From NCBI RefSeq assembly GCF_003253485.1, contig NZ_QKTX01000012.1, positions 62,001 through 126,000 on the forward strand: a DNA stretch of 64,000 bases. Reading direction: 5' to 3'. Made by a program: the position numbers and the translations under genes. This DNA comes from Algoriphagus aquaeductus. GTDB lineage: Bacteria > Bacteroidota > Bacteroidia > Cytophagales > Cyclobacteriaceae. The notes below the pieces were generated by a model. The model did not search any database. It was given only the letters and a program-made list of their open reading frames with translations, and was not told the origin of the DNA. This document shows, one piece after another, positions 29,558 through 41,190 of this stretch; within the stretch, counting starts at the first letter, position 1, and every line of letters starts with the position of its first letter.

Positions 29558-30175
29558 TTAACTGGCAACCAACTTGAAATGAAAGTTGGATTGATCTTTT
29601 CTGTTCCAGGAAATTTCTTTGCTGAGATGGTAAAATGCTTCCAAAAGTGGTGCGTTTTCTATTAAACCTGCATCCACAGCTTTGAAGCCGATCAACTCGA
29701 TCAGTCGCTTGACTCGGATTTTTTCAGGGATATTATCCCCGCAATAGTAGGTTTCCTTGATGATTCCAAAACTGTCCGAATGAGGATAGTCTATCCCCAG
29801 GTTGTTGAAAGCTTTAAAAAGATGGGCTTTTGGGGCATTTTTTTTGATCAGTTTGGTATTCGAAATGGCTAATTTTTTATCGTATTGTGCATTGGTACAG
29901 TCAATGATCAATTTACCTTCGGTTTCTGCATTTTTCAGTGCCAGGCAGATTTCCGGTAAAGCGGAGGTATCGGCGCAGATCAGAATAATTTCAGATTGGA
30001 TGATGGCCGATTCAAACGGACAAATCCGATGATGGAGCCGATTGAGCATTTTCCATTCGGTTTGTTCGGTGTCAAAATCATGTCTGACTCCAAATACTAC
30101 ATCGATCCCTGCATCGATATATTTTTTACCCAAGGTTTTGGCCAGCGAGGTGCCGCCTAGAAGTCCGATTTTCAT
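29558..30175 (-). CDS. F420-dependent NADP reductase-like Rossmann protein
   Basis: A 205-aa protein with an N-terminal dinucleotide fold (KIGLLGGTSLAKTLGKKY) and the pattern of the NADPH:F420 reductase-like family (VVFGVRHDFDT, LIIDCTNAQYDK, KAFNNLGIDYP). Cofactor F420 is not expected in most Bacteroidota, so the name reflects family, not reaction; an NADP-linked reductase or a sequestered binding role is possible. It is the last ordinary gene before the accessory region and has its own terminator. Confidence 0.75.
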   Translation of the reverse strand: MKIGLLGGTSLAKTLGKKYIDAGIDVVFGVRHDFDTEQTEWKMLNRLHHRICPFESAIIQSEIILICADTSALPEICLALKNAETEGKLIIDCTNAQYDKKLAISNTKLIKKNAPKAHLFKAFNNLGIDYPHSDSFGIIKETYYCGDNIPEKIRVKRLIELIGFKAVDAGLIENAPLLEAFYHLSKEISWNRKDQSNFHFKLVAS

Positions 30176-30474: not shown

Positions 30475-30683
30475 CATCCTGCTTAACTGTCAAGGAATCC
30501 TTGACCGTTGCCACTTTGTCTAATTATCATTCTTGAAAGCAGTTGTTGATATACAAGCTGAGGTTTTTGCTGGGATAGGCACACCATTTGATCTTGCGAA
30601 AGTCAAACCGGTTCCTGCTCAAACTTTACTTCGATTGGAGTCTTCCCGTCCTTTCTTAGATAAATCTAGATTTGGTTGTTCAT
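30475..30683 (-). pseudogene. rhuM: RhuM-type gene remnant, N-terminal unit with stop codons
   Basis: From ATGAACAAC at 30683 the minus strand reads MNNQI-stop-IYLRKDGKTPIEVKFEQEPV-stop-LSQDQM and later TVKDSLTVKQ. IEVKFEQ with W-like stop then LSQDQM is the start of the RhuM (Fic/DOC-associated, virulence RhuM) family. The unit ends at the palindrome 30486-30508, and another ATGAACAAC begins at 30477 right after it. The identification is by motif recall. Confidence 0.6.
30486..30508. repeat. Odd-centred palindrome 1 (11-1-11)
   Basis: ACTGTCAAGGA, central A, TCCTTGACCGT: one mismatch in 11 pairs. On the minus strand it encodes TVKDSLTV. Confidence 0.75.
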
Positions 30684-30695
30684 TTCCTAGTTCGA

Positions 30696-30765
30696 TTACC
30701 TTAGCGTATTCGACTCTTGGTCAAATCCAGAGATCAGTATCGATTTTCGTCCTCCAAATCTTTTG
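30696..30765 (-). pseudogene. Remnant copy of the 3' end of the membrane nuclease gene
   Basis: The minus strand reads FDQESNTLR-stop, against FDQETNRLR-stop at the end of the intact nuclease gene at 33747, and the match continues upstream (GAAAATCGAT). The following ATGAACAAC start lies at the same distance (12-13 bp) as at the intact locus, so the nuclease-rhuM junction was duplicated. Confidence 0.65.
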
Positions 30766-30844: not shown

Positions 30845-30862
30845 TTACTTCCCGATACAGAA
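30845..30862 (-). other. Outer attachment-site-like copy of the mnmE 3' end
   Basis: TTACTTCCCGATACAGAA on the plus strand; on the minus strand it encodes FCIGK-stop, the conserved C-terminus of MnmE. It matches 39808-39825 at 15 of 18 positions in the same orientation, with an 11-bp identical core. This is the duplicate expected when an element integrates at the mnmE/trmE 3' end. Confidence 0.75.
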
Positions 30863-31027
30863 AGTGTAACCTATTGTTAATAAGGTTTATGGAAAAAATC
30901 GGTACAAATACGGTACATATCTAAGATGGACTTTTTTTTCGCAATAAAAAATCGATTTTTTTTTTGTCATTTCAAATACTTGGTGTTTGGACTAATTCTG
31001 GTCATTTTACAACAAGAATTTGCCAAT

Positions 31028-31255
31028 TCATAGGAGTATTTTACTGTACCTATTCGGATCTTTTGCATCAATGGGTGCCAATACATGACCAAACATGCTC
31101 AATACATGATTTACCTTGGATAGGTTAAGATTTTCCTTTCCCTGTTCGATTTTCCGGATTACGGTAAGTGCGACCCCGGCTTTGTCGGCAAATTCTTCCT
31201 GAGTCAGTCCTATTTGCTTCCTTCTGGTTTTTACAAATTCGGCTAGTTGATTCAT
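31028..31255 (-). CDS. Y4mF/HipB-type XRE antitoxin-like regulator
   Basis: A 75-aa helix-turn-helix protein (LAEFVKTRRKQIGLTQEEFADKAG, then KIEQGKENLNLSKVNHVLSMFG) of the Y4mF family, usually the antitoxin encoded before hipA. Behind the stop codon there is no HipA-like frame, so it is an orphan. Upstream, in the spacer shared with the divergent fic gene, lie three operator-like palindromes at 40-bp spacing, so it likely represses itself and perhaps fic. DNA binding to those sites is inference from position and symmetry. Confidence 0.85.
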   Translation of the reverse strand: MNQLAEFVKTRRKQIGLTQEEFADKAGVALTVIRKIEQGKENLNLSKVNHVLSMFGHVLAPIDAKDPNRYSKILL

Positions 31256-31257
31256 TC

Positions 31258-31355
31258 TATATGTATTTACATATAAATGTAGAAAAAAGAGTTGGTTTAT
31301 ATGCTTTTGCGTATAAAGATTAGGTTTTATTGATCTTTATATGCTTTTGGATATA
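31258..31355. promoter_or_regulatory. Three operator-like palindromes at exact 40-bp spacing
   Basis: TATATGTATTTACATATA at 31258-31275, TATATGCTTTTGCGTATA at 31298-31315 and TATATGCTTTTGGATATA at 31338-31355. All are 18 bp with the plan TATATG-N6-xxTATA, and start points differ by exactly 40 bp. They fill the spacer between the Y4mF-type gene (minus) and fic (plus). Confidence 0.8.
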
Positions 31356-31450
31356 ATTTTTAGCCAAATCTTTTACAGTGAGGGATAGAAGGCCATTCTA
31401 TAACTCATTTATTTCGTATTATTGATCTATAGGAATAATCTCAATAGCTC

Positions 31451-32557
31451 ATGCAATGGATTTGGGAGAGAGCGGATTGGCCAAACTTCACATTTGACCC
31501 TGCGGCATTCGTTCATTTAGAACGCGAATTTCATCGAAATACGGGTTTGATTTTAGGTTCGCTTAGTTCGGTGTCGTCTGAGGATGCGGATGAACTAAAG
31601 GTTAGTATTTTGAGCAGCGAAGCGTTGGATACCTCGAAAATTGAAGGGGAGATATTAGATAGAGATTCTGTTCAATCATCTATTCGTGGTCAGCTGGGAT
31701 TGCAGACTGATGGAAGAAGGCCTGGTCCCAAAGAAACGGGTGTTTCCCGAATGATGGTGGATCTCTACAAGAGTTACCGTGAGCCTCTTGACCAAGAGCG
31801 CCTATTCTCCTGGCATCAAATGATGATGAACGGAAGGATTGATTTGGTAATTGTCGGAGGGTATCGAGTTCATGTAGATCCGATGCAGATTGTATCGGGG
31901 AGGTTAGATTCGACTCAAGTTTTCTATGAGGCTCCGCCTTCTCATAGGGTGCCAAAAGAGATGGAAAATTGTCTTATTTGGTTCAATCGAGCTTTTAGCG
32001 AAGGAATGCCCACATTGGTTCATGCCGGATTGGCGCACCTGTATTTTGAATTAATTCACCCTTTTGAAGATGGAAATGGTCGAATCGGACGAGCCATTGC
32101 AGAAAAAGCCTTGGCTATGGGAGCCAAACACCCCTTGATTACCTCACTTTCCAGTACCATAGAGCGAAATAAAAAGGCATATTATCATGCTTTAGAGCGT
32201 GCCAATAGCTCGTTGGAGGTGACAGATTGGTTGGTTTATTTTTCTGAAGAGGTGTTGAAAGCCCAAATCAATGTGCAGAAATTGATTCTATTTATTGTGG
32301 AAAAGGCTCGCTACTTTGAAGAATTCCGGACTAAGCTGAATGAGCGTCAGTCCAAAGTCGCGCTGCGGTTGTTTCGTGAAGGACCAGAAGGTTTCAAAGG
32401 TGGACTGAGTGCCGAGAATTACATTCGTATCAGTAAAACTTCTCCCGCTACTGCCACCAGAGATCTGGCGGAAATGGTAGCCCTTGGAGCTCTAAAAAAG
32501 ACTGGTAAACTTAGGCATACGCGATACTATCTCCCAATGGTGGAAATTTCACATTGA
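31451..32557 (+). CDS. fic: Fic-domain AMP-transferase-like protein with DUF4172 N-terminus
   Basis: A 368-aa protein. The N-terminus (MQWIWERADWPNFTFD) is the DUF4172-type segment; DTSKIEGE at about 60-67 fits the inhibitory motif (S/T)xxxE(G/N) with Thr61 and Glu65-Gly66; the Fic core motif is HPFEDGNGRIGR at 203-214, complete with catalytic His; a C-terminal winged-helix-like part follows (GLSAENYIRISKTSPATATRDL). It should transfer AMP to a protein target, with self-inhibition by the N-terminal helix. It diverges from the Y4mF-type regulator across the operator array. Confidence 0.92.
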   Translation: MQWIWERADWPNFTFDPAAFVHLEREFHRNTGLILGSLSSVSSEDADELKVSILSSEALDTSKIEGEILDRDSVQSSIRGQLGLQTDGRRPGPKETGVSRMMVDLYKSYREPLDQERLFSWHQMMMNGRIDLVIVGGYRVHVDPMQIVSGRLDSTQVFYEAPPSHRVPKEMENCLIWFNRAFSEGMPTLVHAGLAHLYFELIHPFEDGNGRIGRAIAEKALAMGAKHPLITSLSSTIERNKKAYYHALERANSSLEVTDWLVYFSEEVLKAQINVQKLILFIVEKARYFEEFRTKLNERQSKVALRLFREGPEGFKGGLSAENYIRISKTSPATATRDLAEMVALGALKKTGKLRHTRYYLPMVEISH

Positions 32558-32825
32558 GGATTTATTGTTTGAATAAAGGTCAAAATATAGGGTTTCATGA
32601 TCTCTATGAACCAAAGTGGTTGTCGCAAATTTTGCGACAACCATTTCCTTCACCAATTCTCCTTCATTAAAAACATTGTTGATGTGTTTGCCGATAGTTT
32701 TGACATCTCTTCCAAAGAGGGAGGCAATTTGATTTCTATTTAGCCAAACAGTATCTTTTTCAAACTTGACCTCGATTTGAGTCTGACCGTCCCTTCCTTG
32801 ATATTTCGATTTGATTGTTGTTCAT
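32549..32825 (-). pseudogene. rhuM: RhuM-type gene remnant with frameshift, truncated
   Basis: MNNNQIEI from the ATG at 32825, then after a one-base shift YQGRDGQTQIEVKF, DTVWLNRNQIASLFGRD, VKTIGKHINNVFNEGELV, MVVAKFATTT. This is the N-terminal third of RhuM-like proteins. Similarity stops right after the palindrome at 32617-32643; the frame then runs into the 3' end of fic and stops at 32551. No full-length product can be made. Confidence 0.75.
32617..32643. repeat. Odd-centred palindrome 3, perfect (13-1-13)
   Basis: TGGTTGTCGCAAA, central T, TTTGCGACAACCA: all 13 pairs match. On the minus strand it encodes MVVAKFATT at the point where the RhuM remnant breaks off. Confidence 0.85.
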
Positions 32826-32842
32826 TTTACAATTTCTATTCA

Positions 32843-32867
32843 ACCTCCAAGGATTCCTTGATAGTTG
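32843..32867. repeat. Odd-centred palindrome 4 (12-1-12, degenerate)
   Basis: AACCTCCAAGGA, central T, TCCTTGATAGTT: 9 of 12 pairs, the inner six perfect. The minus strand reads PTIKESLEVE-stop and is followed 17 bp later by the ATGAACAAC start at 32825, the same arrangement as at 30486/30477. Confidence 0.6.
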
Positions 32868-32901
32868 GAATGAGTTAAAAGCTATCCTCTTTTTTTAAAT
32901 C

Positions 32902-33261
32902 CTATACTCCGAGTACAATTGATGCTTCAATATCCAGTTTCCGGCTGATTTCCCGAGCGATTTTCAAAGTGGGTTCACTTTTGCCATTCAGGTATTCGCT
33001 GATTCGAGAAGTGCTGACTCCCAAAAACTCGGAAAGTGCTTTTTGCGTCAATCCACGCTCATTCATTCTCAATTTTATCGCTTCGGATAGGGTTGGAGGA
33101 GAAATTGGGAAATGGCTTTCTTCATAATCTGCAACGAGATCTGAGAGCAGGTTAAGTTCCACAAAACCTTTTGATTCAGAATTCTCGATGTTCTCTGAAT
33201 CTGCAAGCAATTCTTCTATTCTTTCCAGAATAGCTTTGTATTCTTTTTCAGATTTGATCAT
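32902..33261 (-). CDS. higA: HigA-type antitoxin (XRE helix-turn-helix)
   Basis: A 119-aa protein: an N-terminal HigA-like segment (EYKAILERIEELLADSEN) and a C-terminal XRE domain (RMNERGLTQKALSEFLGVSTSRISEYLNG, LKIAREISRKLDI). It follows the HigB-type toxin gene with 2 bp between, in the toxin-first order typical of higBA. It should neutralise HigB and repress the operon. The gene lies between decayed rhuM pieces but is itself intact. Confidence 0.9.
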   Translation of the reverse strand: MIKSEKEYKAILERIEELLADSENIENSESKGFVELNLLSDLVADYEESHFPISPPTLSEAIKLRMNERGLTQKALSEFLGVSTSRISEYLNGKSEPTLKIAREISRKLDIEASIVLGV

Positions 33262-33263
33262 AC

Positions 33264-33560
33264 TCAGATAGTTTGAATGTCTTTTATTTTGTCGTATTCG
33301 GAATGGGTGCCAATAAATCGGATATAAACCTTCTTTGCATTAAATGAAATGATCGCAACCAGCCGATAGGAGTTTCCCTTTATATTGAAGACAAATCGAT
33401 GATTTCCTACGTAATCGACTGAATTAAAGTCTTTTTTGATATCATTTAGAGATTCCCAGTCTTTTTTGCTAGTTACCGAATACCAGAAGCGAAGCGGAGT
33501 TTCAGCGTCCGCATGCTTTTCAGAAAACTCCTGTATCCGTTTGAAAGTAACGATTCTCAC
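33264..33560 (-). CDS. higB: HigB-type mRNA interferase toxin
   Basis: A 98-aa ribosome-dependent endoribonuclease-like toxin: RIVTFKRIQEFSEKHADAE, LRFWYSVTSKKDWESLNDIK, HRFVFNIKGNSYRLVAII and VYIRFIGTHSEYDKI match the HigB family. I chose the GTG at 33560 (preceded by GGA) because family members begin at this point; an ATG at 33590 would add ten residues. It is encoded directly before higA and both are intact, so this is the only complete toxin-antitoxin pair in the island. Confidence 0.88.
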   Translation of the reverse strand: MRIVTFKRIQEFSEKHADAETPLRFWYSVTSKKDWESLNDIKKDFNSVDYVGNHRFVFNIKGNSYRLVAIISFNAKKVYIRFIGTHSEYDKIKDIQTI

Positions 33561-33639
33561 TCCATTAAAATATTTTGAAATATGAAACAAAATTACAAAA
33601 AATGGAATAATATTGATTGAATTGGCTAGACTTTTTTAA

Positions 33640-33734
33640 TGACCTAATCTCCTAGTGGTTAATTCCTATTTCTTGGGAATGGTATGTCGGAATTTCCGAC
33701 TTACCATTAGCTATATCTCAATCTGGTTGTTCAT
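33640..33734 (-). pseudogene. rhuM: RhuM-type start with internal deletion
   Basis: Thirteen bases after the nuclease stop the minus strand reads MNNQIEI-stop-LMVSRKFRHTIPKK-stop. The RhuM start is fused to the palindrome segment, with about 150 bp missing relative to the remnant at 32549-32825. It shows that rhuM was once the fourth gene of the restriction operon. Confidence 0.6.
33679..33707. repeat. Odd-centred palindrome 5 (14-1-14)
   Basis: ATGGTATGTCGGAA, central T, TTCCGACTTACCAT: 13 of 14 pairs. Same plan as the other four palindromes, different arms. Confidence 0.8.
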
Positions 33735-33746
33735 TTCCTCTTTTGC

Positions 33747-34475
33747 CTACCTTAATCTATTCGTCTCTTGGTCAAAAAAGAAATCGGCATCGATTTTCTT
33801 TTTGTATTTGCCAATTCGATCTTTAGAAATGTAAGGTTTGGTCAATTCCTGAACTGGCAAAATGTACAATGCGGCCGGATCTGAAGCTTTCCCTCCAATA
33901 CCCAAGACAATGAAAACCGGTTGATTCTCTTTTGCAGCAAAGGCCTTGTATCGCTCCAATTGTCCCTCATTGGCGAAGCGGATATAGTCACCTTTGGATT
34001 CAGATCTCCACTTGCATTCTACAGCAAGAGGGTAGGACTGACCTCGAAGAATCAGCGATAGCTGAATATCCGGCTGTGTAGTGGTATCGGCATATCGACC
34101 ATCTACAAACTTGTCGCCTGCCCAATTCCGTATTTTGAAAAATTTCTTGTCAAACTTCTGCACCACAAACTTTTCGAAATCCAATCCTGCTTTTTGGTTT
34201 ACATCGATCAATTCCGTCTCAGAGTCTTCTTCCGATTCTTCCAGTTCACTTTTGATCTGACGGATGGCGAGTTCGGCATCTTTTCCTTCACTGATGGCAA
34301 TTTCGCGGATTAGCTTTTCTTCTTTTGGAGTCAACACACCATCGGCTTTTACCGCTGCAATGGCTTGAGTCAAGGATTCGTTCCTAATTGACTTGGATTT
34401 AACCAAAAGTACAATTCCGGAAACCAATAAAATTCCGCCGAGGATGATTAAGGAGATGGGGAGCATGCGGGGCAT
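33747..34475 (-). CDS. Membrane-anchored TerB-like/PD-(D/E)XK nuclease
   Basis: A 242-aa protein starting at the ATG at 34475, one base after the stop of the upstream gene (TAA-A-ATG); a TTG at 34484 would add three residues. Residues 5-25 form one membrane helix. Residues 33-75 (AIAAVKADGVLTPKEEKLIREIA) resemble a TerB-like helical unit with the ADG..E motif. The C-terminal half is a PD-(D/E)XK fold: FEKFV (Glu101), QPDIQ (Asp136) and AVECKWR (Glu153-x-Lys155). A nuclease tethered at the membrane behind a type IIG enzyme suggests a DNA-entry barrier; this role is inference. Confidence 0.75.
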   Translation of the reverse strand: MPRMLPISLIILGGILLVSGIVLLVKSKSIRNESLTQAIAAVKADGVLTPKEEKLIREIAISEGKDAELAIRQIKSELEESEEDSETELIDVNQKAGLDFEKFVVQKFDKKFFKIRNWAGDKFVDGRYADTTTQPDIQLSLILRGQSYPLAVECKWRSESKGDYIRFANEGQLERYKAFAAKENQPVFIVLGIGGKASDPAALYILPVQELTKPYISKDRIGKYKKKIDADFFFDQETNRLR

Positions 34476-34476
34476 T

Positions 34477-35436
34477 TTAATCAAACATGTTTACATAAAA
34501 TTTTTGAGATGTATATAAGTTGTACCTATTAATGTTCCAATATCCTTCAATTTCTCCTAGCTTTTCTGGTTTCCAACTTTCGAATAAGTTTAGTGATATA
34601 GCCCAAGATTCGATTCTGGTTGCAATTAAATCTGATATTAGTTGTTGATATTTTTGTGGGTAACTTTCATTCCAACTTTTAAAATAACTTTCAATCCAAT
34701 TATTAGTGTATTCATTGGATTTACCTAATATGATAAACAATGATTTTTTGTATGGAATTAAACTAATTAAAACAATAGGGAATGGTTCTGCTTGATCATA
34801 GGATTCTGTACTTGAAATGGGAGAAAATACGCCAGCCCCACAAACTTCCAAAAAAGGGACTTCAAATGTTTTAAAAGTAAAAGAATTTGATGATAACTCG
34901 GCGTTTTCAATTTTTTCTTTATAATAAATTAAATCTGAAATCCCCAAAGCATGAGATTCTATGTTTTGCTGAAGCATTTCCTTTTCTTGACTTGAAAGTA
35001 GAATTCTCAGTCGATTTGATTTTTCCATTCTCTGATAGAATTCTAAATTTCTTTTCTTTTTCCATAATTCACCACAAAGCGACCTATATAAAAAAAGCCT
35101 TTGTGTTTCATGATTGTGAAAATCTATTTCCCCAACTTCAATAGTTCTGAAAATCGAAGTGTCATGTCTGTTACAAAACAAAGGATGACACATTACTTTG
35201 TTAAGACTATTTTTTTTGAAAACAAGAGTTCTTTCTCCATTGTATATTTTAAAGTAGTCGTTTTCGACAAGTTCAACCACATGTGAGTTTAAAGAAATTA
35301 AACTTAGTGTTCCATTTTTTTGTAATAGATGAGATTTTATTGCGTCATTATTACAGCCAATGGACATACAATTCCACTTTTTACTGTGGACATTTTTGTT
35401 TATAGCTTGGAGGATTTTTATTTTCTCTGCACTCAT
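34477..35436 (-). CDS. Unknown protein with HNH-like zinc-ligand motif, restriction-operon linked
   Basis: A 319-aa protein of unrecognised function. Residues 20-95 have paired ligands: CMSIGC (Cys23, Cys28), SH at 35-36, and MCHPLFCNRHD (Cys83, Cys88, His91, Asp92), a pattern fitting a treble-clef or HNH-like zinc site. The rest is helical, with no signal peptide or membrane segment. The start overlaps the stop of the type IIG gene by 4 bp (ATGA) and it ends one base before the membrane nuclease, so the three are translationally coupled. The gene is markedly AT-rich. It could be a nuclease subunit, inhibitor or sensor. Confidence 0.65.
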   Translation of the reverse strand: MSAEKIKILQAINKNVHSKKWNCMSIGCNNDAIKSHLLQKNGTLSLISLNSHVVELVENDYFKIYNGERTLVFKKNSLNKVMCHPLFCNRHDTSIFRTIEVGEIDFHNHETQRLFLYRSLCGELWKKKRNLEFYQRMEKSNRLRILLSSQEKEMLQQNIESHALGISDLIYYKEKIENAELSSNSFTFKTFEVPFLEVCGAGVFSPISSTESYDQAEPFPIVLISLIPYKKSLFIILGKSNEYTNNWIESYFKSWNESYPQKYQQLISDLIATRIESWAISLNLFESWKPEKLGEIEGYWNINRYNLYTSQKFYVNMFD

Positions 35437-38400
35437 TTATCACCCTCTTCCACTATCCCAATCTCTTCCTCACTTAAGCCATATAAATTGTATACCAATC
35501 GGTCAATTAGCTCTTTTAATTCTTCATTTTCTCCATTTTGAAAGATAAGTTCTTCAACCGCTTTTTCAAGTTCATTACTTGACAAAATAGAAGGGAATGG
35601 GATACTTTTGATATATCTTGATTCAAAACTATACCATCCTCCTCTCATTTGAGTAGATGTCAGTTTGATGTACCAGTTGGCTATTTTCGAATTTAAAATT
35701 CCTAGAAGGAAATAGAATGAAATCTCGGGTTTTGGAATAATTCCATATCCTCCACTAGCACCACCTGTAAACATGTATTTTCCTGTCTGGTCTAGTGCAA
35801 AACGAGAGGCAGGTGCAATATCAGGTGTGAAAATTTTTCTGGTTTGAATTATCTCAATGGCTTGATTCCTCCCAAATTGAAACCATTTTTCAACTTTAAA
35901 TTTTCCACTTTCCCTTTCTTCCAAAATACTTTTATTTGTGTTTAGATATTGGGCTGTAAGGGGGGCTTCTTTCTTAAGCAACTCAAACGGAATCAAATTT
36001 CCATTCTCGTAAGGAAACAAAATCAATAATTCAGGTTCGGAAAGGGTATATGCTCTGCTGTTTCCTCCTTTGATTAGTGGAAATAGAAGTGCTTTTTCAA
36101 GCTCAATTTCTTTATCTAACTGTTCTGAAAAAACGATAAAAGTTTTCTCTAATTCACTTATTTTTTTGACTATAAATACTTTATCTGCACTAGTCTTTAA
36201 CCCTTGGAAAATCCTTTCGGTTAGTGTTTCTAGTGTATTTTCAGATTGTTTTATTCTTTGTAGTAGAAGACTTTCCTCATTCTTTAAGAAAACCCAATTT
36301 TCCTTACTAAGAGATGAAATATCTACTTCACTAAATTTCATTTCATTTATTTCCAAAATTGAGGATGGAACCTCACATTCATAAAATGAGATTTTTTCGT
36401 TAGGTTCTTTCAACATAAAAAATATCCCGGTATATGTTGTAGCGTCTTCAAAAACCTGATTTGAACCAAAATGAATAATCTTTTCAAGGAATTGAGTACT
36501 CTTTAAAAATCCTCTTATTTCAGCCCCATAGTTTGCATTCAGAAATTTATGAGGATTAATATATGCTAACGAACCTTTTTTTGAAAGAATTTTATATCCA
36601 AGTTCTATAAATGGTATATAGATATCATAATTTCCTTTTCCAGTTGACTCGTAAGATTTGTTTAAATGCTCCACAAATTCAGGGGAATTTTTTTGAAGCT
36701 CTTGAATTCTGATATAAGGAGGATTGCCGATCACCACATCAAATCCTACAAAATCGCCTTCATCATTGAGCACTTCTGGAAATTCAAACCTCCATTCAAA
36801 GGCATTTTCATAGATCTGATTAGATCTAATTTCCTCGATTTGGGTATCCAGCATGTTGAGTTCCGCAGTGACTTTTTCCACTTTGGCCAGGCGGATTTTC
36901 TTCTCTTTTGCCGATTCCTCGAAAAGTCCAGTCTGACTCGTCAAGTTGTAAAGTTCCCCTCCGAGTTTTGCCCTCCGGAGAATCTTGGGATCGTTTTTGG
37001 AGATCTCGGATCGGAAGTTGGTTTTGATCTGTGCGATCAGGGCTTCCATCGCCCGTTTTTCGTCCTTGCTCTTTGCATTGCGGTAGGTGGAAACTGCCGT
37101 TTTGTAGTCTTCAATCTTCCATGAGCCTTTAAGCGCAGACTTGAGGTCGGAATCCAATGCAAAGCGGGAAACTAGGGAATTGCCGACTTTGATGTTGATG
37201 TCGATATTGGGCAAGGTTTCCAGCTCTCGACCTTGAAACCCTCCAAGGGTTTCGAACCCTTGGAGGGTTGCTATTCTATAATACGCCGATTTCAAAAGCT
37301 CAATCCAAAGCCTCAACCGACAGATTTTGACGGAGTTGGGATTGATATCTACCCCGAAAAGACAGTTCTCGATGATGGTCTGCTTTTCGTGAAAAAGCGT
37401 TTCCTGGATGCGTTGGCTTTCTTTGCTTAAGTAATTGTATTCAAACAGATTACCTTCCAAGTCAGCAATGATCAATTCATCATTGATCACTTCGACGACA
37501 TGGCTACTGATCGGGTCATAATTGGAATCCACCAAAATTTTAAGCTCACTCTTGATGGCAATCAATTCATTCAATACCGAAACCAGAAAATGTCCGGACC
37601 CGACCGCGGGATCCACGATTTTCAGGCTATTGATGATCTCATTGGCTATTCTTCTGACTTCTTTTCTATTTCCGGATCTGATTTCCTCCTGTAGGTCTTC
37701 CTTCAGTTCTTCAAAAGTTTGGCAGTTCCACCCTTTGGCCTGATTGAATTTTTGGACGATTGTTTTCCGAATCGTCTTTGCAGACATATACATGGTGATA
37801 AATCCGGGCGTGAACACGGATCCATCTTTGTAGCCATTGATTTTCTCAAAGATGAGACCAAGCACGGAAGCATTGATCAAGGTCTTATTTTCCTCTTGAA
37901 TGTCCTCTGAACCTTCCGAACTGAAATCGTAGGCATTCAGAAACTCCAAGAGGTATTCCAGAGCGGGAAGACTTCCGGTCCGCTTTTTCCCCTGATCATT
38001 CTTCAAAACCGTGCTTCCGATAATCGGGATGGATTTTTCATCTTGGAGATTGGAGATGAACAAAGTGTCGTGTTCCATATCCGTTGGCTCAAAAAGCGAA
38101 CTGTTCAGGTAAGGAACATTTCCAAAAATCTGGTTGATTTCTTCTGATCGGTCTTGGTACTTTCTGGCTAAGACTTTAAAAAATAGGCTATTGAGGTCGT
38201 CATAATTTTTGATTTTATCCCGATTCAGAAATGAATAGGAGCGGTCTCCCTTATGATAATTGATCAATTGGGCTTCCAAAAGCTTGAGAAACAGGATTCT
38301 ATTGATCCAAGTAATCGAAAGCTCCAAGCCAACATTGAAAAGCCGCTCTTCATGGCTGGTGCCAAACTGGCTTGGCTTTTTCAGTCTGCTGATTTTGTCC

Positions 38401-39287
38401 AAGCTGTCCAGCTCGGTAATCGTACTTTCCAAAATGGAACCCACATTCCGCGCCCCAACCTTACTTCTTCCGATGACTTTTTTTCCGCCATCGTTCGTTT
38501 CGTCAAGTCCTATGATGTGCAGCAGTTCGCTGTAAAACCGTCTGTCCAGGCTATTGCTGTCGTTGGCAAAGGGAAGCTTCAGCAAATGCTCTGGTGAGAG
38601 AAGCTTGAAAAGGGCAATCAGCTTGATATCATCGCTTTTGTCTGTATTTCGCAGTGGTTTTTCATAGTCCCGGAAATCAAAGTAGGTGAACGGTATCTGG
38701 TCTTTTACCTTTTCGATGGCAGGTTCAGCGATGTTTTTGTAGAAAAAGTCAGTCTTTATTTCTGACAATCTTTTTGCTTCGAAGTCTTCAAATTGCTTTA
38801 CCAATGCTTTGTTTTGAGCAAAAAGACGGTCGAAAATTTGGGCTTCAAAAATAAACCACTCATGAATATTGGTTACAACCAAGTGCTTTATTTCCAGATT
38901 TTTATGTGTGATTCGCTCACGTAAATAATAAAGAATAAGCTCTTGAAGTGCTTTATAATTTAGATTTGAAATAGAGATCATCTCACCCTTATTGGTAGGC
39001 TTTTTAGCTTCAATGATCACTCCGACATTGGATTTGGCACTATCTCCCAAATGAATTACCAAATCATTTTTTCCCTTGATGTTGATGAAGTGGCTTGGCT
39101 CGTAATAAGTTTTCTTTAAAAAGTCGATAACCAGATTTTTGTGAAACTCCTCGGGTTCGGAATCATTGATCCGATCGAGTAGTTGAACCAGGTTCGATTT
39201 AAAACTCTCAATAGCAATCCGGTTGGGCTTTACTTTTCGGAATGCTGGATTTAATGCTTGTTTGGGTTTAAGGTACTTTTCGGTCAT
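35433..39287 (-). CDS. Type IIG restriction-modification enzyme (Eco57I-like)
   Basis: A 1284-aa fusion that should both methylate adenine and cut DNA. N-terminal PD-(D/E)XK: NDLVIHL (Asp75) and IIEAKKP (Glu93-x-Lys95). Methylase motif I is DPAVGSGHF (559-567), GVDINPNSV follows at 645-653, and motif IV is NPPY (855-858). The last ~400 residues form the target-recognition region (GGASGGYGI near its end). Residues about 673-684 are encoded by a perfect 15-3-15 palindrome read in frame. The part after NPPY is much more AT-rich than the N-terminal two thirds, suggesting domain exchange. First gene of the coupled three-gene operon. Confidence 0.88.
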   Translation of the reverse strand: MTEKYLKPKQALNPAFRKVKPNRIAIESFKSNLVQLLDRINDSEPEEFHKNLVIDFLKKTYYEPSHFINIKGKNDLVIHLGDSAKSNVGVIIEAKKPTNKGEMISISNLNYKALQELILYYLRERITHKNLEIKHLVVTNIHEWFIFEAQIFDRLFAQNKALVKQFEDFEAKRLSEIKTDFFYKNIAEPAIEKVKDQIPFTYFDFRDYEKPLRNTDKSDDIKLIALFKLLSPEHLLKLPFANDSNSLDRRFYSELLHIIGLDETNDGGKKVIGRSKVGARNVGSILESTITELDSLDKISRLKKPSQFGTSHEERLFNVGLELSITWINRILFLKLLEAQLINYHKGDRSYSFLNRDKIKNYDDLNSLFFKVLARKYQDRSEEINQIFGNVPYLNSSLFEPTDMEHDTLFISNLQDEKSIPIIGSTVLKNDQGKKRTGSLPALEYLLEFLNAYDFSSEGSEDIQEENKTLINASVLGLIFEKINGYKDGSVFTPGFITMYMSAKTIRKTIVQKFNQAKGWNCQTFEELKEDLQEEIRSGNRKEVRRIANEIINSLKIVDPAVGSGHFLVSVLNELIAIKSELKILVDSNYDPISSHVVEVINDELIIADLEGNLFEYNYLSKESQRIQETLFHEKQTIIENCLFGVDINPNSVKICRLRLWIELLKSAYYRIATLQGFETLGGFQGRELETLPNIDINIKVGNSLVSRFALDSDLKSALKGSWKIEDYKTAVSTYRNAKSKDEKRAMEALIAQIKTNFRSEISKNDPKILRRAKLGGELYNLTSQTGLFEESAKEKKIRLAKVEKVTAELNMLDTQIEEIRSNQIYENAFEWRFEFPEVLNDEGDFVGFDVVIGNPPYIRIQELQKNSPEFVEHLNKSYESTGKGNYDIYIPFIELGYKILSKKGSLAYINPHKFLNANYGAEIRGFLKSTQFLEKIIHFGSNQVFEDATTYTGIFFMLKEPNEKISFYECEVPSSILEINEMKFSEVDISSLSKENWVFLKNEESLLLQRIKQSENTLETLTERIFQGLKTSADKVFIVKKISELEKTFIVFSEQLDKEIELEKALLFPLIKGGNSRAYTLSEPELLILFPYENGNLIPFELLKKEAPLTAQYLNTNKSILEERESGKFKVEKWFQFGRNQAIEIIQTRKIFTPDIAPASRFALDQTGKYMFTGGASGGYGIIPKPEISFYFLLGILNSKIANWYIKLTSTQMRGGWYSFESRYIKSIPFPSILSSNELEKAVEELIFQNGENEELKELIDRLVYNLYGLSEEEIGIVEEGDK
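37237..37269. repeat. Perfect 15-3-15 palindrome inside the type IIG coding region
   Basis: AACCCTCCAAGGGTT, loop TCG, AACCCTTGGAGGGTT. It encodes ATLQGFETLGGFQ on the minus strand between AYYR and RELETLPNID, which are conserved methylase segments. The sequence resembles intergenic Bacteroidota palindromes, not protein-driven sequence. Confidence 0.85.
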
Positions 39288-39429
39288 TAGAAATCAGCTT
39301 GCTGGAAAAAATCTTTCAACAAGATGCAATTTTTTTGACTAAAAAGGCAATCGATTTTTAGCGGTGATTGAAAAATTAAGACGGTATTTGTCTTGGTTTT
39401 TAAAAAGAGAAAAAGAATAATCTGATTGG

Positions 39430-39558
39430 TTAGGTTAAATTTTGTACCTGTGTCTTGCGAACCTTGTGATCTCGAACAGCATTGATGATTGTGCTTTTTC
39501 CAGATCCATTTGGCCCTGCAAAGACTCTAAGTCTAAGATTTGATTTAGTCGAGGACAA
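39430..39558 (-). pseudogene. Truncated zeta-toxin-like P-loop kinase
   Basis: From a TTG at 39558 the frame reads LRLRVFAGPNGSGKSTIINA and continues VRDHKVRKTQVQNLT-stop, 42 codons. AGPNGSGKST is a Walker A motif typical of zeta-like kinases that follow such antitoxins; the rest of the usual ~190-aa protein is missing. It overlaps the end of the upstream small gene, as a real antitoxin-toxin pair would. Confidence 0.7.
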
Positions 39559-39790
39559 GTTTTCTGGATTTTGAATAGTCTTTCAATTTCTCAAGCTGAA
39601 TTACCGAACCATCTGAATTCTCACGTACAATCCACCCATTTTCCGCTTTGACCACATATCCAGCGATTTCCATCGAGGCATCTGAAGCTTTTTTTACCGC
39701 AGCGGAAGCTACACGGACTAAATCCCGCTTGGTCAAATAAGCAGTAGTTTTTCGTGCCTTCGATTTTTTAGTTCTTTTTGGACTCTTCAT
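39545..39790 (-). CDS. Small basic antitoxin-like protein partnered with zeta-like kinase
   Basis: An 81-aa protein: a very basic N-terminus (PKRTKKSKARKTTAYLTKRD), a helix and a C-terminal beta part (GYVVKAENGWIVRENSDGS, ending KSRKLVLD). In Bacteroidota such proteins are encoded directly before AAA/zeta-toxin-like kinases, recalled from general family context. Here the kinase is only a fragment, so this is an orphan antitoxin. It is the island gene closest to mnmE, 17 bp from its stop codon. Confidence 0.65.
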   Translation of the reverse strand: MKSPKRTKKSKARKTTAYLTKRDLVRVASAAVKKASDASMEIAGYVVKAENGWIVRENSDGSVIQLEKLKDYSKSRKLVLD

Positions 39791-39807
39791 ATTGTCAATT
39801 TAAGAAG

Positions 39808-39825
39808 CTATTTCCCGATACAAAA
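39808..39825 (-). other. Attachment-site-like repeat, mnmE copy
   Basis: CTATTTCCCGATACAAAA on the plus strand encodes the C-terminal FCIGK-stop of MnmE on the minus strand. It is the inner boundary of the putative island and the partner of 30845-30862. Confidence 0.75.
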
Positions 39826-41190
39826 CTTACTAAAAATATTCGCCAGCAAATCATCGGTGGTCACTTGCCCGGTAATCTCTCCGAGATAGTGCAGAGATCT
39901 TCGGATATCCATCGCCAGAAAATCATTAGTCACTTCCTGATCCAAACCGGATAGGACATCCAGCAAAGATTCTCTGGTTTTGGTCAGGCTATCATAGTGG
40001 CGCACGTTGGTCACAATGGTGTTTCCGGTCCGGAATTTATCCAGGTTGACGAGTTCAAGAATGCGGGCTTTGAGCCCTTCCAGATTCTCTTTTTTGCCTG
40101 CCGAGATAAAAATGGTATCCGGATGTTTTTCCTTTAACTCACTGATAATATTCTCCTTAGCCTTATCCGTCTTATTCGCTACTTTCAGAAAAGGCACGCC
40201 CAAGTTTTCCAGTTTGTTGATGTCCCGATTGATCTCTACCAGGTCGGTATCACTCAGGTCAAAGAGGTACAGAATCAGGGAAGCGGTCTTCATTTTCTCT
40301 TGAGTCCGACTTACGCCTATGGCCTCGATGGTATCAGTGGTTTCCCGCAAACCGGCCGTATCGATAAATCGGAAGATGACTCCGCCGATGCTGATCTCAT
40401 CTTCGATAAAATCGCGGGTGGTACCTGCGATATCCGAAACGATCGCTTTTTCCTCATTGAGTAGGGCATTGAGAAGCGTGGATTTTCCGGCATTTGGCTT
40501 GCCGGCGATGACCGTGGGAACCCCGTTTTTAATCACGTTGCCCAAGTCGAAACTCAAGATGAGTTCCTCGACGATTCTCAGAATCCGCTCTACCAATGTT
40601 CTCAAATCATCCCGACTGGCAAACTCTACATCTTCCTCCACAAAGTCGAGTTCCAACTCAATCATGGAGGCAAAGTGGATCAGTTGATTTCTCAGTTCTT
40701 GGATCTCAGAGGAAAAACCGCCACGCATCTGATTCAGTGCGGCTTGGTGGCTGGTTTCGGAGTCTGCATGGATTAAATCGGCCACGGCCTCTGCTTGGGC
40801 GAGATCAAATTGTCCATTTAAGAAGGCACGTTGGGTAAATTCTCCGGGCTTGGCTAGGCGGATACCTTTGCGTACAAAGAGCTTGAGCACCTGATTGATG
40901 ATGTAGGAGGAACCGTGCGTCGAAATTTCCACTACATTTTCTTTGGTAAAGGATTTCGGAGCTTTAAAAACGGAGACTAAAACTTCATCGATGATTTTTT
41001 CTCCATCCCGGATAGTACCAAAATGAATGGTATGGGTAGGAACTTCTTCCAAGTTTTTTCCAAAAAAGACCTCATTTGTGGCTTTGATGGCATTTTTTCC
41101 GGAAAGACGAATGACGGCAATAGCGCCGACTCCCTGTGGAGTAGCTAGAGCGATGATGGTATCTTCGCGTTCTGCGAGATTAAAACTCAT
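39808..41190 (-). CDS. mnmE: tRNA uridine-5-carboxymethylaminomethyl modification GTPase MnmE
   Basis: A 460-aa GTPase that, with MnmG, modifies U34 of certain tRNAs. N-terminal folate-binding domain (DTIIALATPQGVGAIAVIRL), helical domain, inserted G domain (GKPNAGKSTLLNALL, DTAGLRE, NKTDK) and the catalytic C-terminal FCIGK with the essential Cys. It overlaps the thioredoxin gene by 4 bp (ATGA), so it is the last gene of the metal-transport operon. Its last codons form the island attachment-like site; the C-terminus is intact. Confidence 0.97.
   Translation of the reverse strand: MSFNLAEREDTIIALATPQGVGAIAVIRLSGKNAIKATNEVFFGKNLEEVPTHTIHFGTIRDGEKIIDEVLVSVFKAPKSFTKENVVEISTHGSSYIINQVLKLFVRKGIRLAKPGEFTQRAFLNGQFDLAQAEAVADLIHADSETSHQAALNQMRGGFSSEIQELRNQLIHFASMIELELDFVEEDVEFASRDDLRTLVERILRIVEELILSFDLGNVIKNGVPTVIAGKPNAGKSTLLNALLNEEKAIVSDIAGTTRDFIEDEISIGGVIFRFIDTAGLRETTDTIEAIGVSRTQEKMKTASLILYLFDLSDTDLVEINRDINKLENLGVPFLKVANKTDKAKENIISELKEKHPDTIFISAGKKENLEGLKARILELVNLDKFRTGNTIVTNVRHYDSLTKTRESLLDVLSGLDQEVTNDFLAMDIRRSLHYLGEITGQVTTDDLLANIFSKFCIGK

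Follow-up and report, generated by a model that had tools for sequence, protein, structure and literature searches.

The DNA under study is a stretch of 64,000 nucleotides of Algoriphagus aquaeductus (contig NZ_QKTX01000012.1, positions 62,001 to 126,000), hereafter the window, in which a block of about 9 kb lies directly behind the 3′ end of mnmE (trmE). The block spans 30845-39825, between two copies of an 18-bp core, and carries restriction and toxin-antitoxin genes that had been noticed in an initial annotation made from the sequence alone. The site is defined by the following features.

39808..41190, minus strand: mnmE (trmE), the target gene (NCBIfam NF003661, 395 bits against a cut-off of 380); its final 18 bp are the near attachment core
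39808..39825, minus strand: near core on the mnmE side, TTTTGTATCGGGAAATAG, encoding FCIGK-stop (repeat comparison, genome search)
30845..30862, minus strand: far core, TTCTGTATCGGGAAGTAA, with ATAGGTTACACT immediately before it (repeat comparison, genome search, far-end comparison)
30900..30917, minus strand: putative paired arm-like integrase sites, TGTACCGTATTTGTACCG, 37 bp inside the far core; one exact copy in 4.9 Mb
29558..30175, minus strand: flanking chromosomal gene for an F420-type oxidoreductase (PF03807, 1.3e-07)

The attachment core, the empty site and the far end

Read on the minus strand, the near and the far core are identical at 15 of 18 positions, share their orientation and an identical stretch of 11 bp (TGTATCGGGAA), and both encode FCIGK-stop; every detail of the repeat given in the initial annotation was reproduced. 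When the window was searched with a pattern near, and not letter-identical to, either copy, allowing up to 3 mismatches, 2 matches were found against 0.07 expected, and none of 100 shuffles reached 2. The annotation had also considered that the repeat might be equally common genome-wide, which it is not: a degenerate 18-mer occurs at 8 places in the 4.9-Mb genome with up to 2 mismatches, and only the near and the far core are perfect. The third-best copy (G000:C5:58545-58562) has 1 mismatch, equals the far core at 17 of 18 positions and lies within a ferritin gene, named from a reading of its protein; as a secondary attachment site it was rejected because of that position, and it is taken for a chance copy. 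The remaining five places have 2 mismatches each.

By themselves the 18 bp are weak, suggestive evidence, and the evidence for a site-specific island is strong because a comparison of relatives and the arm-like sites are added to the repeat. Relatives were drawn from a genus sample of 59 genomes, in 51 of which an mnmE end was found; downstream sequence was fetched for 41 of these, the other 10 being left unclassified, mostly with mnmE near a contig end, and G178 gave no downstream sequence, so that 40 genomes (1.21 Mb) were read. A second core behind mnmE, in the orientation of mnmE and with up to 2 mismatches, is present in 15 of the 40, one of them being the scar of G196 described below, against 0 in the opposite orientation and 0 with reversed letters in the same genomes. 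G015 and G187 have far cores as well, which came to light only when a third reference spelling was used or the limit was relaxed. Judged by these comparisons, the 18-bp repeat is an attachment site.

The state of the site differs among the 40 genomes. A family integrase lies within 1 kb behind mnmE in 14, and a remnant of one in two more (G180, G002), which makes 16 of 40. Integrase-less islands with a far core are present in four (the window genome, G000, and G016, G192 and G172), while four others (G017, G176, G169, G019) have integrase-less regions that share island genes and show no far core in the available sequence, which in three of them ends within 14 kb; G169 and G019 were assigned to this type by the type IIG gene alone, on short contigs. 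The F420-type gene lies within 3 kb of mnmE in seven genomes (G004, G196, G071, G010, G182, G057, G189), and nine fit no category or are too short. G004 represents the plain empty state and the island-free relative that the initial annotation had proposed to look for: behind its mnmE, after 225 bp, comes the gene found at 29.6-30.2 kb of the window, the F420-type gene, followed by glucokinase, zwf and pgl as in the window.

In G004 the correspondence holds at the level of gene order, and in two pairs, G192/G196 and G016/G023, filled and empty states break at the core. G196 carries just a 76-bp scar at mnmE, with a second FCIGK end, and the 400 bp past the far core of G192 match the sequence past this second core at 97.5%. 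Likewise, 106 bp past the far core of G016 match the post-mnmE sequence of G023 from the first base, at 79%. In neither of the filled genomes, G192 and G016, does the flank of the far core match the genome's own post-mnmE sequence. The earlier claim that the block is accessory and site-specific at the mnmE 3′ end is supported by these filled and empty relatives.

The class of the ancestral element may be read from the arm sites. Exact arm motifs were sought in the first 272 bp behind mnmE, and since they had been derived from the same near ends, the near-end counts are not independent: TTTGTACCG is present in G014, G174, G175 and G184 (2-3 copies each), TTGTTGCTAA in G015, G190, G168, G187 and G185 (1-2 copies), TTTGTACCT in G177 and G002, and TTGTTGCCA in G199. 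The G009-class motif as written matched poorly, at one of four near ends, and no arm motif was found in that stretch of the seven empty genomes. The near-end motifs thus vary with integrase class. Far ends, fetched after the motif had been noted, carry the GTACCG pair in all four cases (G174, G184 and the second elements of G183 and G186); the far ends of G175 and G014 lie beyond the available sequence. The spacing between arm pair and core in the window is within one base of that in G174, G184, G183, G186 and G172, and the final 76 bp of the window block show 81-82% in alignments to the far ends of G174 and G184, two elements that bear an integrase. On the inner side of the far core, a hipB-like gene is present in G174, G184, G183, G186, G172, G016 and the window; the hipB region is 82% identical over 444 bp between the window and G174. 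These comparisons show the far end of the window block to be that of the GTACCG integrase class, with putative arm sites.

Gene content of the block

Running down from mnmE, the block contains the genes listed below, to which one decayed stretch outside the island is added.

39545..39790, minus strand: putative antitoxin of 81 aa, starting 17 bp past the mnmE stop; no Pfam family found
39445..39558, minus strand: remnant of a zeta-like kinase gene, 38 aa (87% over 38 aa); the gene is whole in G016 and G017
35433..39287, minus strand: type IIG restriction enzyme-methyltransferase (PADLOC REase_MTase_IIG, 7.7e-245; Pfam DUF7149, DUF7814, Eco57I, TaqI_C)
34477..35436, minus strand: protein of 319 aa, function unassigned by family scans; 4-bp overlap with the type IIG gene
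33747..34484, minus strand: protein of 245 aa with a weak TerB-like stretch (TerB 0.03, below cut-off) and, by our own reading, a nuclease-like AVECKWR motif
33264..33590, minus strand: HigB-like toxin (PF09907, 1.3e-33)
32902..33261, minus strand: HigA-like antitoxin (HTH_3, 3.1e-14; PADLOC PD-Lambda-2_B, 1e-25)
32654..32803, minus strand: RhuM gene remnant (56% over 50 aa)
31451..32557, plus strand: Fic/DOC protein (DUF4172-Fic), 88% identical to the Fic protein in the integrase-bearing element of G009
31028..31255, minus strand: HipB-like antitoxin (TIGR03070, 75.5 bits against a cut-off of 71.65; nucleotide identity with G174 as above)
30476..30725, minus strand, outside the island: remnants of a second RhuM gene (62% over 37 aa with stops, E 1.6e-9) and perhaps the final codons of a 245-aa-type gene

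The 81-aa gene is present in 4 of the 59 genus genomes, in each directly behind mnmE. It is not exclusive to that site, an idea rejected because a genus member from another sample, G109, has a homologue on a different contig from mnmE. A zeta-like open reading frame (ORF) adjoins the 81-aa gene in five of six further loci (L231-L236, by a reading of the ORFs), and the zeta-like protein of G016 matches Zeta_toxin (PF06414, 1.3e-07); by sequence comparison, the 81-aa protein and the zeta-like kinase are a recurrent gene pair in Bacteroidota, of which only the small partner is whole in the window (39445-39790).

The gene for the 319-aa protein overlaps the type IIG gene on one side and the 245-aa gene on the other, and because of these overlaps the three probably form one operon. 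No match to the 319-aa protein was found in Pfam, PADLOC or NCBIfam, and a very large protein collection yielded 12 proteins at E <= 0.001, itself counted. The 245-aa protein is common to three other mnmE islands, with homologues behind mnmE in G016 (82%), G192 (90%) and G172 (68%). The Fic homologue of G009 sits about 2.3 kb inside the far core of the integrase-bearing element of that genome, and the identity to the window protein therefore marks Fic as cargo common to different element classes. In the element of G174, hipB is followed by N- and C-terminal pieces of HipA just inside the far core, with MobC, a PF03432 relaxase and a DUF5906 protein further in; the window retains hipB alone, without hipA, and its HipB is read as the remainder of such a hipB-hipA module at the far end of a GTACCG-class element.

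The absence of a recombinase between the repeats, claimed in the initial annotation, was borne out: no integrase was found among the ORFs of the block or in scans of eight island proteins, no excisionase was found in the island, and no relaxase among the eight proteins. The genome-wide search for a recombinase that the annotation had suggested did return five integrase-domain proteins; none is of the mnmE-element family, the nearest being 29-30% identical over 250-260 residues. As a family member that could serve as helper, an integrase of the own genome was rejected on this ground. Four of the five were placed in the tree, all outside the mnmE-labelled rows.

Origin of the block

With high probability, the block 30845-39825 is an integrase-less derivative of an integrative and mobilizable element (IME) of Bacteroidota that targets mnmE. 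The far-end comparisons name its origin more precisely than the initial annotation, whose interpretation is partly supported overall: the parent was most likely an mnmE element of the GTACCG class. A tyrosine recombinase would have joined the attP of this ancestor, a member of the class with arm sites TTTGTACCG, to the last 18 bp of mnmE, in a recombination that would preserve the FCIGK-stop end of the gene and leave a core on each side. The excisionase-integrase-relaxase half and the near-side arms would subsequently have disappeared from the island, presumably by loss rather than by multi-step assembly, with the far end (core, arm pair and hipB) being kept together with a cargo of the type IIG restriction operon, HigBA, Fic and a broken zeta-type module. 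The elements of G174, G184 and G183 resemble the window in having the far-end core, the arm pair and hipB in the same order. In contrast, the elements of G174, G184, G175, G014 and the second one of G183 keep excisionase and integrase, and that of G174 also MobC and the relaxase, none of which was found in the window island. The core and a class-specific arm pair thus let a defence island be recognised as a former mobile element after integrase loss.

Several observations weigh against this origin. No near-side arm motif remains in the window. In G016 and G192 a similar lead precedes the core (ACACT and TCACT, respectively) and the GTACCG arm pair is missing, so that not every integrase-less island bears the class mark. 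G017 has the same 81-aa gene at mnmE, yet no far core was found in 77 kb. The matches of the window to sequences after the core in relatives begin only at a distance from the far core, 527 bp past it for G004 (68% over 254 bp) and 465 bp past it for the sequence after the far core of G199 (78% over 345 bp). Finally, when 146 genomes of the order were searched by means of the integrase alignment, 26 places were found, 14 of which lie elsewhere than beside mnmE, within the 1.5 kb examined; because just 12 of the 26 adjoin mnmE, the wider integrase family is not tied to this gene.

The island may also have been reached by way of accretion, which is a route to an integrase-less derivative and not its contrary. 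At least two elements would have accreted at mnmE, and a deletion would have fused the near part of one (81-aa gene and zeta) to the far part of another, of the GTACCG class. This course of events is possible, somewhat short of an even prospect. The near and the far end have different relatives, the 81-aa/zeta start being found in G016, G017 and G176 and the far end in G174 and G184, and RhuM remnants flank the far core on both sides. The outer ones (30476..30725) may be the wreck of a former tandem neighbour, although the 245-aa-type end among them (7 of 9 positions matching, E 0.98) is not significant alone. Against the fusion, both parents side by side were seen in none of the genomes read.

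Tandem arrays in relatives suggest that movement of the window block in cis is possible. In G183 a G009-class integrase element (20 kb) is followed by a shared core and then by an element of the GTACCG class, 17.7 kb long, that has both excisionase and integrase. In G186 the block behind a G009-class element measures 17.4 kb; its far end is of the GTACCG class, and no family integrase was found in it. Beyond the far core of G172, the sequence looks by eye like the near end of the TTGTTGCTAA class, and no integrase was found in the next 10 kb. The arrays are compatible with accretion and later movement in cis of blocks such as that in the window. An autonomous element of the same class might insert at mnmE beside the island, upon which the pair could excise between the near end of the newcomer and the far end of the island. 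Cis-mobilizable elements (CIMEs) and accretion arrays are known from the integrative and conjugative elements and IMEs of Streptococcus, in which integrase-less blocks lie between attachment sites, in tandem with complete elements; the terms themselves occur in PMC5704250 and PMC7563491. The window block is alike in that attachment sites, on the near side the core only, bound it at both ends without integrase or transfer genes, and in that relatives carry complete elements in tandem. It differs in phylum and in site, and movement of the window block in cis would be a possibility with which the arrays agree.

A stronger form of this idea holds that the cis-mobilizable unit itself is what is maintained at mnmE: integrase-less islands with a restriction module and a far core, regularly moved by incoming mnmE elements. 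It is plausible enough to be weighed and on the doubtful side. Genes are shared among the islands of G000, G016, G192 and G172, each of which has a far core and in none of which a family integrase was found, and arrays with integrase-bearing elements are present in G183 and G186. On the other hand, near-side arm motifs are absent in 8 of 8 integrase-less cases tested, and the arm pair is present in just 2 of the 4 integrase-less islands with a far core. Between G192 and the window, identity is 90% for the 245-aa gene and 65% for the flanking glucokinase gene, a contrast that is only a hint, as the compared genes may differ in evolutionary rate. The window island is also a case, open to testing, of restriction and toxin-antitoxin genes left behind at a single hotspot from which they may be re-mobilised.

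A chance 18-bp repeat, with ordinary recombination having gathered accessory genes in the variable intergenic stretch that follows mnmE, would agree with the ferritin-gene copy, which is plainly due to chance, with the shared genes of G017 and their missing far core, and with decayed genes outside the repeat too. It is nevertheless very improbable and was rejected, being largely refuted by the orientation controls (second cores in 15 of 40 genomes in the orientation of mnmE and in none with either control), by the filled and empty pairs that break at the core and by the unique arm pair at the spacing of its class. Equally slight is the chance that the block is an island of the Salmonella genomic island 1 (SGI1) family, with an SGI1-type integrase and in need of an IncA/C-type helper, since its end structure fits a Bacteroidota integrase class, no integrase was found between the repeats, nor any of the GTACCG class in the genome, and the SGI1 hosts named in the sources at hand, as far as these extend, are Gammaproteobacteria.

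Elements at mnmE across Bacteroidota

The occurrence of such elements was followed by scanning an alignment of four excisionase-like proteins against 84,980 species genomes, which gave 252 confirmed stretches, of which the best 80 were fetched. In 76 of these 80 loci the mnmE end lies directly upstream of the excisionase-like gene on the same strand, with the start codon of the latter 205-274 bp behind mnmE; in the other four, contig ends cut off mnmE at most 315 bp before the gene. An integrase match is present in 77 loci, and the remaining three end within 700 bp of the excisionase gene. The initial annotation had held this site to be unusual in a Bacteroidota genome; because of the 76 loci, and with a family integrase or its remnant there in 16 of 40 genus genomes, this view was overturned, and the mnmE site is ordinary for the phylum.

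By record title the hosts are mostly Bacteroidota of several orders, with four Acidobacteriota bins and one bin called Rickettsiales. The Rickettsiales bin (L092) and the Acidobacteriota groups (L123, L136, L138, L146) all have excisionase-integrase pairs behind mnmE. The integrase of L092 is placed among Bacteroidota integrases in the tree, and these loci may reflect mis-binning or wide transfer. Integrases identical in the compared columns occur across families, a sign of recent exchange: in Algoriphagus formosus and Marivirga atlantica, and in Cyclobacterium lianum and Marinoscillum furvescens. A single clean clade of mnmE-specific integrases is unsupported, as no fewer than 5 label changes on well-supported branches are required by the quick tree. 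When the 10-kb flanks of the 80-locus set were searched for distal repeats with up to 3 mismatches, 5 of 64 usable loci had one; the opposite orientation gave 2 and reversed letters gave 1, counts that prove little alone. It may be proposed, tentatively and at just under even likelihood, that a family of mobilizable elements which spans the Bacteroidota and is moving at present has the mnmE 3′ end as its home site, that its integrase classes have one core in common and differ in their arms, and that it sheds and re-accretes integrase-less defence islands such as that of the window.

Resistance islands of the SGI1 group, which insert in Gammaproteobacteria at the 3′ end of mnmE, are the best-known users of this site; in the genomes read here, those 18 bp are used by elements across many Bacteroidota. 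The trmE 3′ end is listed for SGI1 and MGIVchHai6, SGI1 is noted to carry a toxin-antitoxin system, and other sites are given for Bacteroidota IMEs, in the accessible part of a review table (PMC5704250), and the accessible part of another gives the terminal 18 nucleotides of trmE as the site used by SGI1 (PMC6531882). The window block shares with SGI1 and MGIVchHai6 the same gene end and lies at the last 18 bp; it differs from them in phylum, in its GTACCG-arm class ends and in the integrase, none being left or found in the island. SGI1 mobilization or tra genes were not named in family scans of the island proteins, a negative that comes without a sequence search aimed at them. The SGI1-type affiliation proposed in the initial annotation was not shown, the end structure fitting a Bacteroidota integrase class with its own arm sites, and membership of the island in that family is not supported. 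Among Bacteroidota IMEs with tyrosine integrases, NBU1, NBU2, MTnPi4 and Tn6031 also use a gene 3′ end and are listed at tRNA genes in the accessible part of PMC5704250; they resemble the window element in phylum and in the use of a gene 3′ end and differ in that the gene is not mnmE. A search of open papers by title and abstract, a coverage mostly outside subscription journals, found no description of Bacteroidota mnmE elements among the papers listed, and on that basis no description of the family behind the window island was found. Elements of this kind may be present without a name in the TIGER/Islander island catalogue (PMC12424338).

An integrase of a sister class has the domains PF17293-PF13102-PF00589, and the element of G174 encodes excisionase, integrase, MobC and a PF03432 relaxase. 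In a phage collection 391 records match the integrase, with 36-47% identity among the 8 matches listed and one further record in the 60-80% band; in a plasmid collection 214 records match, all below 60% and with 37-40% among the 8 matches listed. The element of G015 (TTGTTGCTAA class; L044, L058) has, by sequence reading, ORFs resembling a metal efflux pump set and a type I restriction system. A second mnmE 3′ piece of 76 codons lies in G190 (G190:C1:248280-248495, L209), about 26.6 kb from mnmE; with the second piece in G196 (L187), it may mean that elements or recombination exchange the mnmE end itself.

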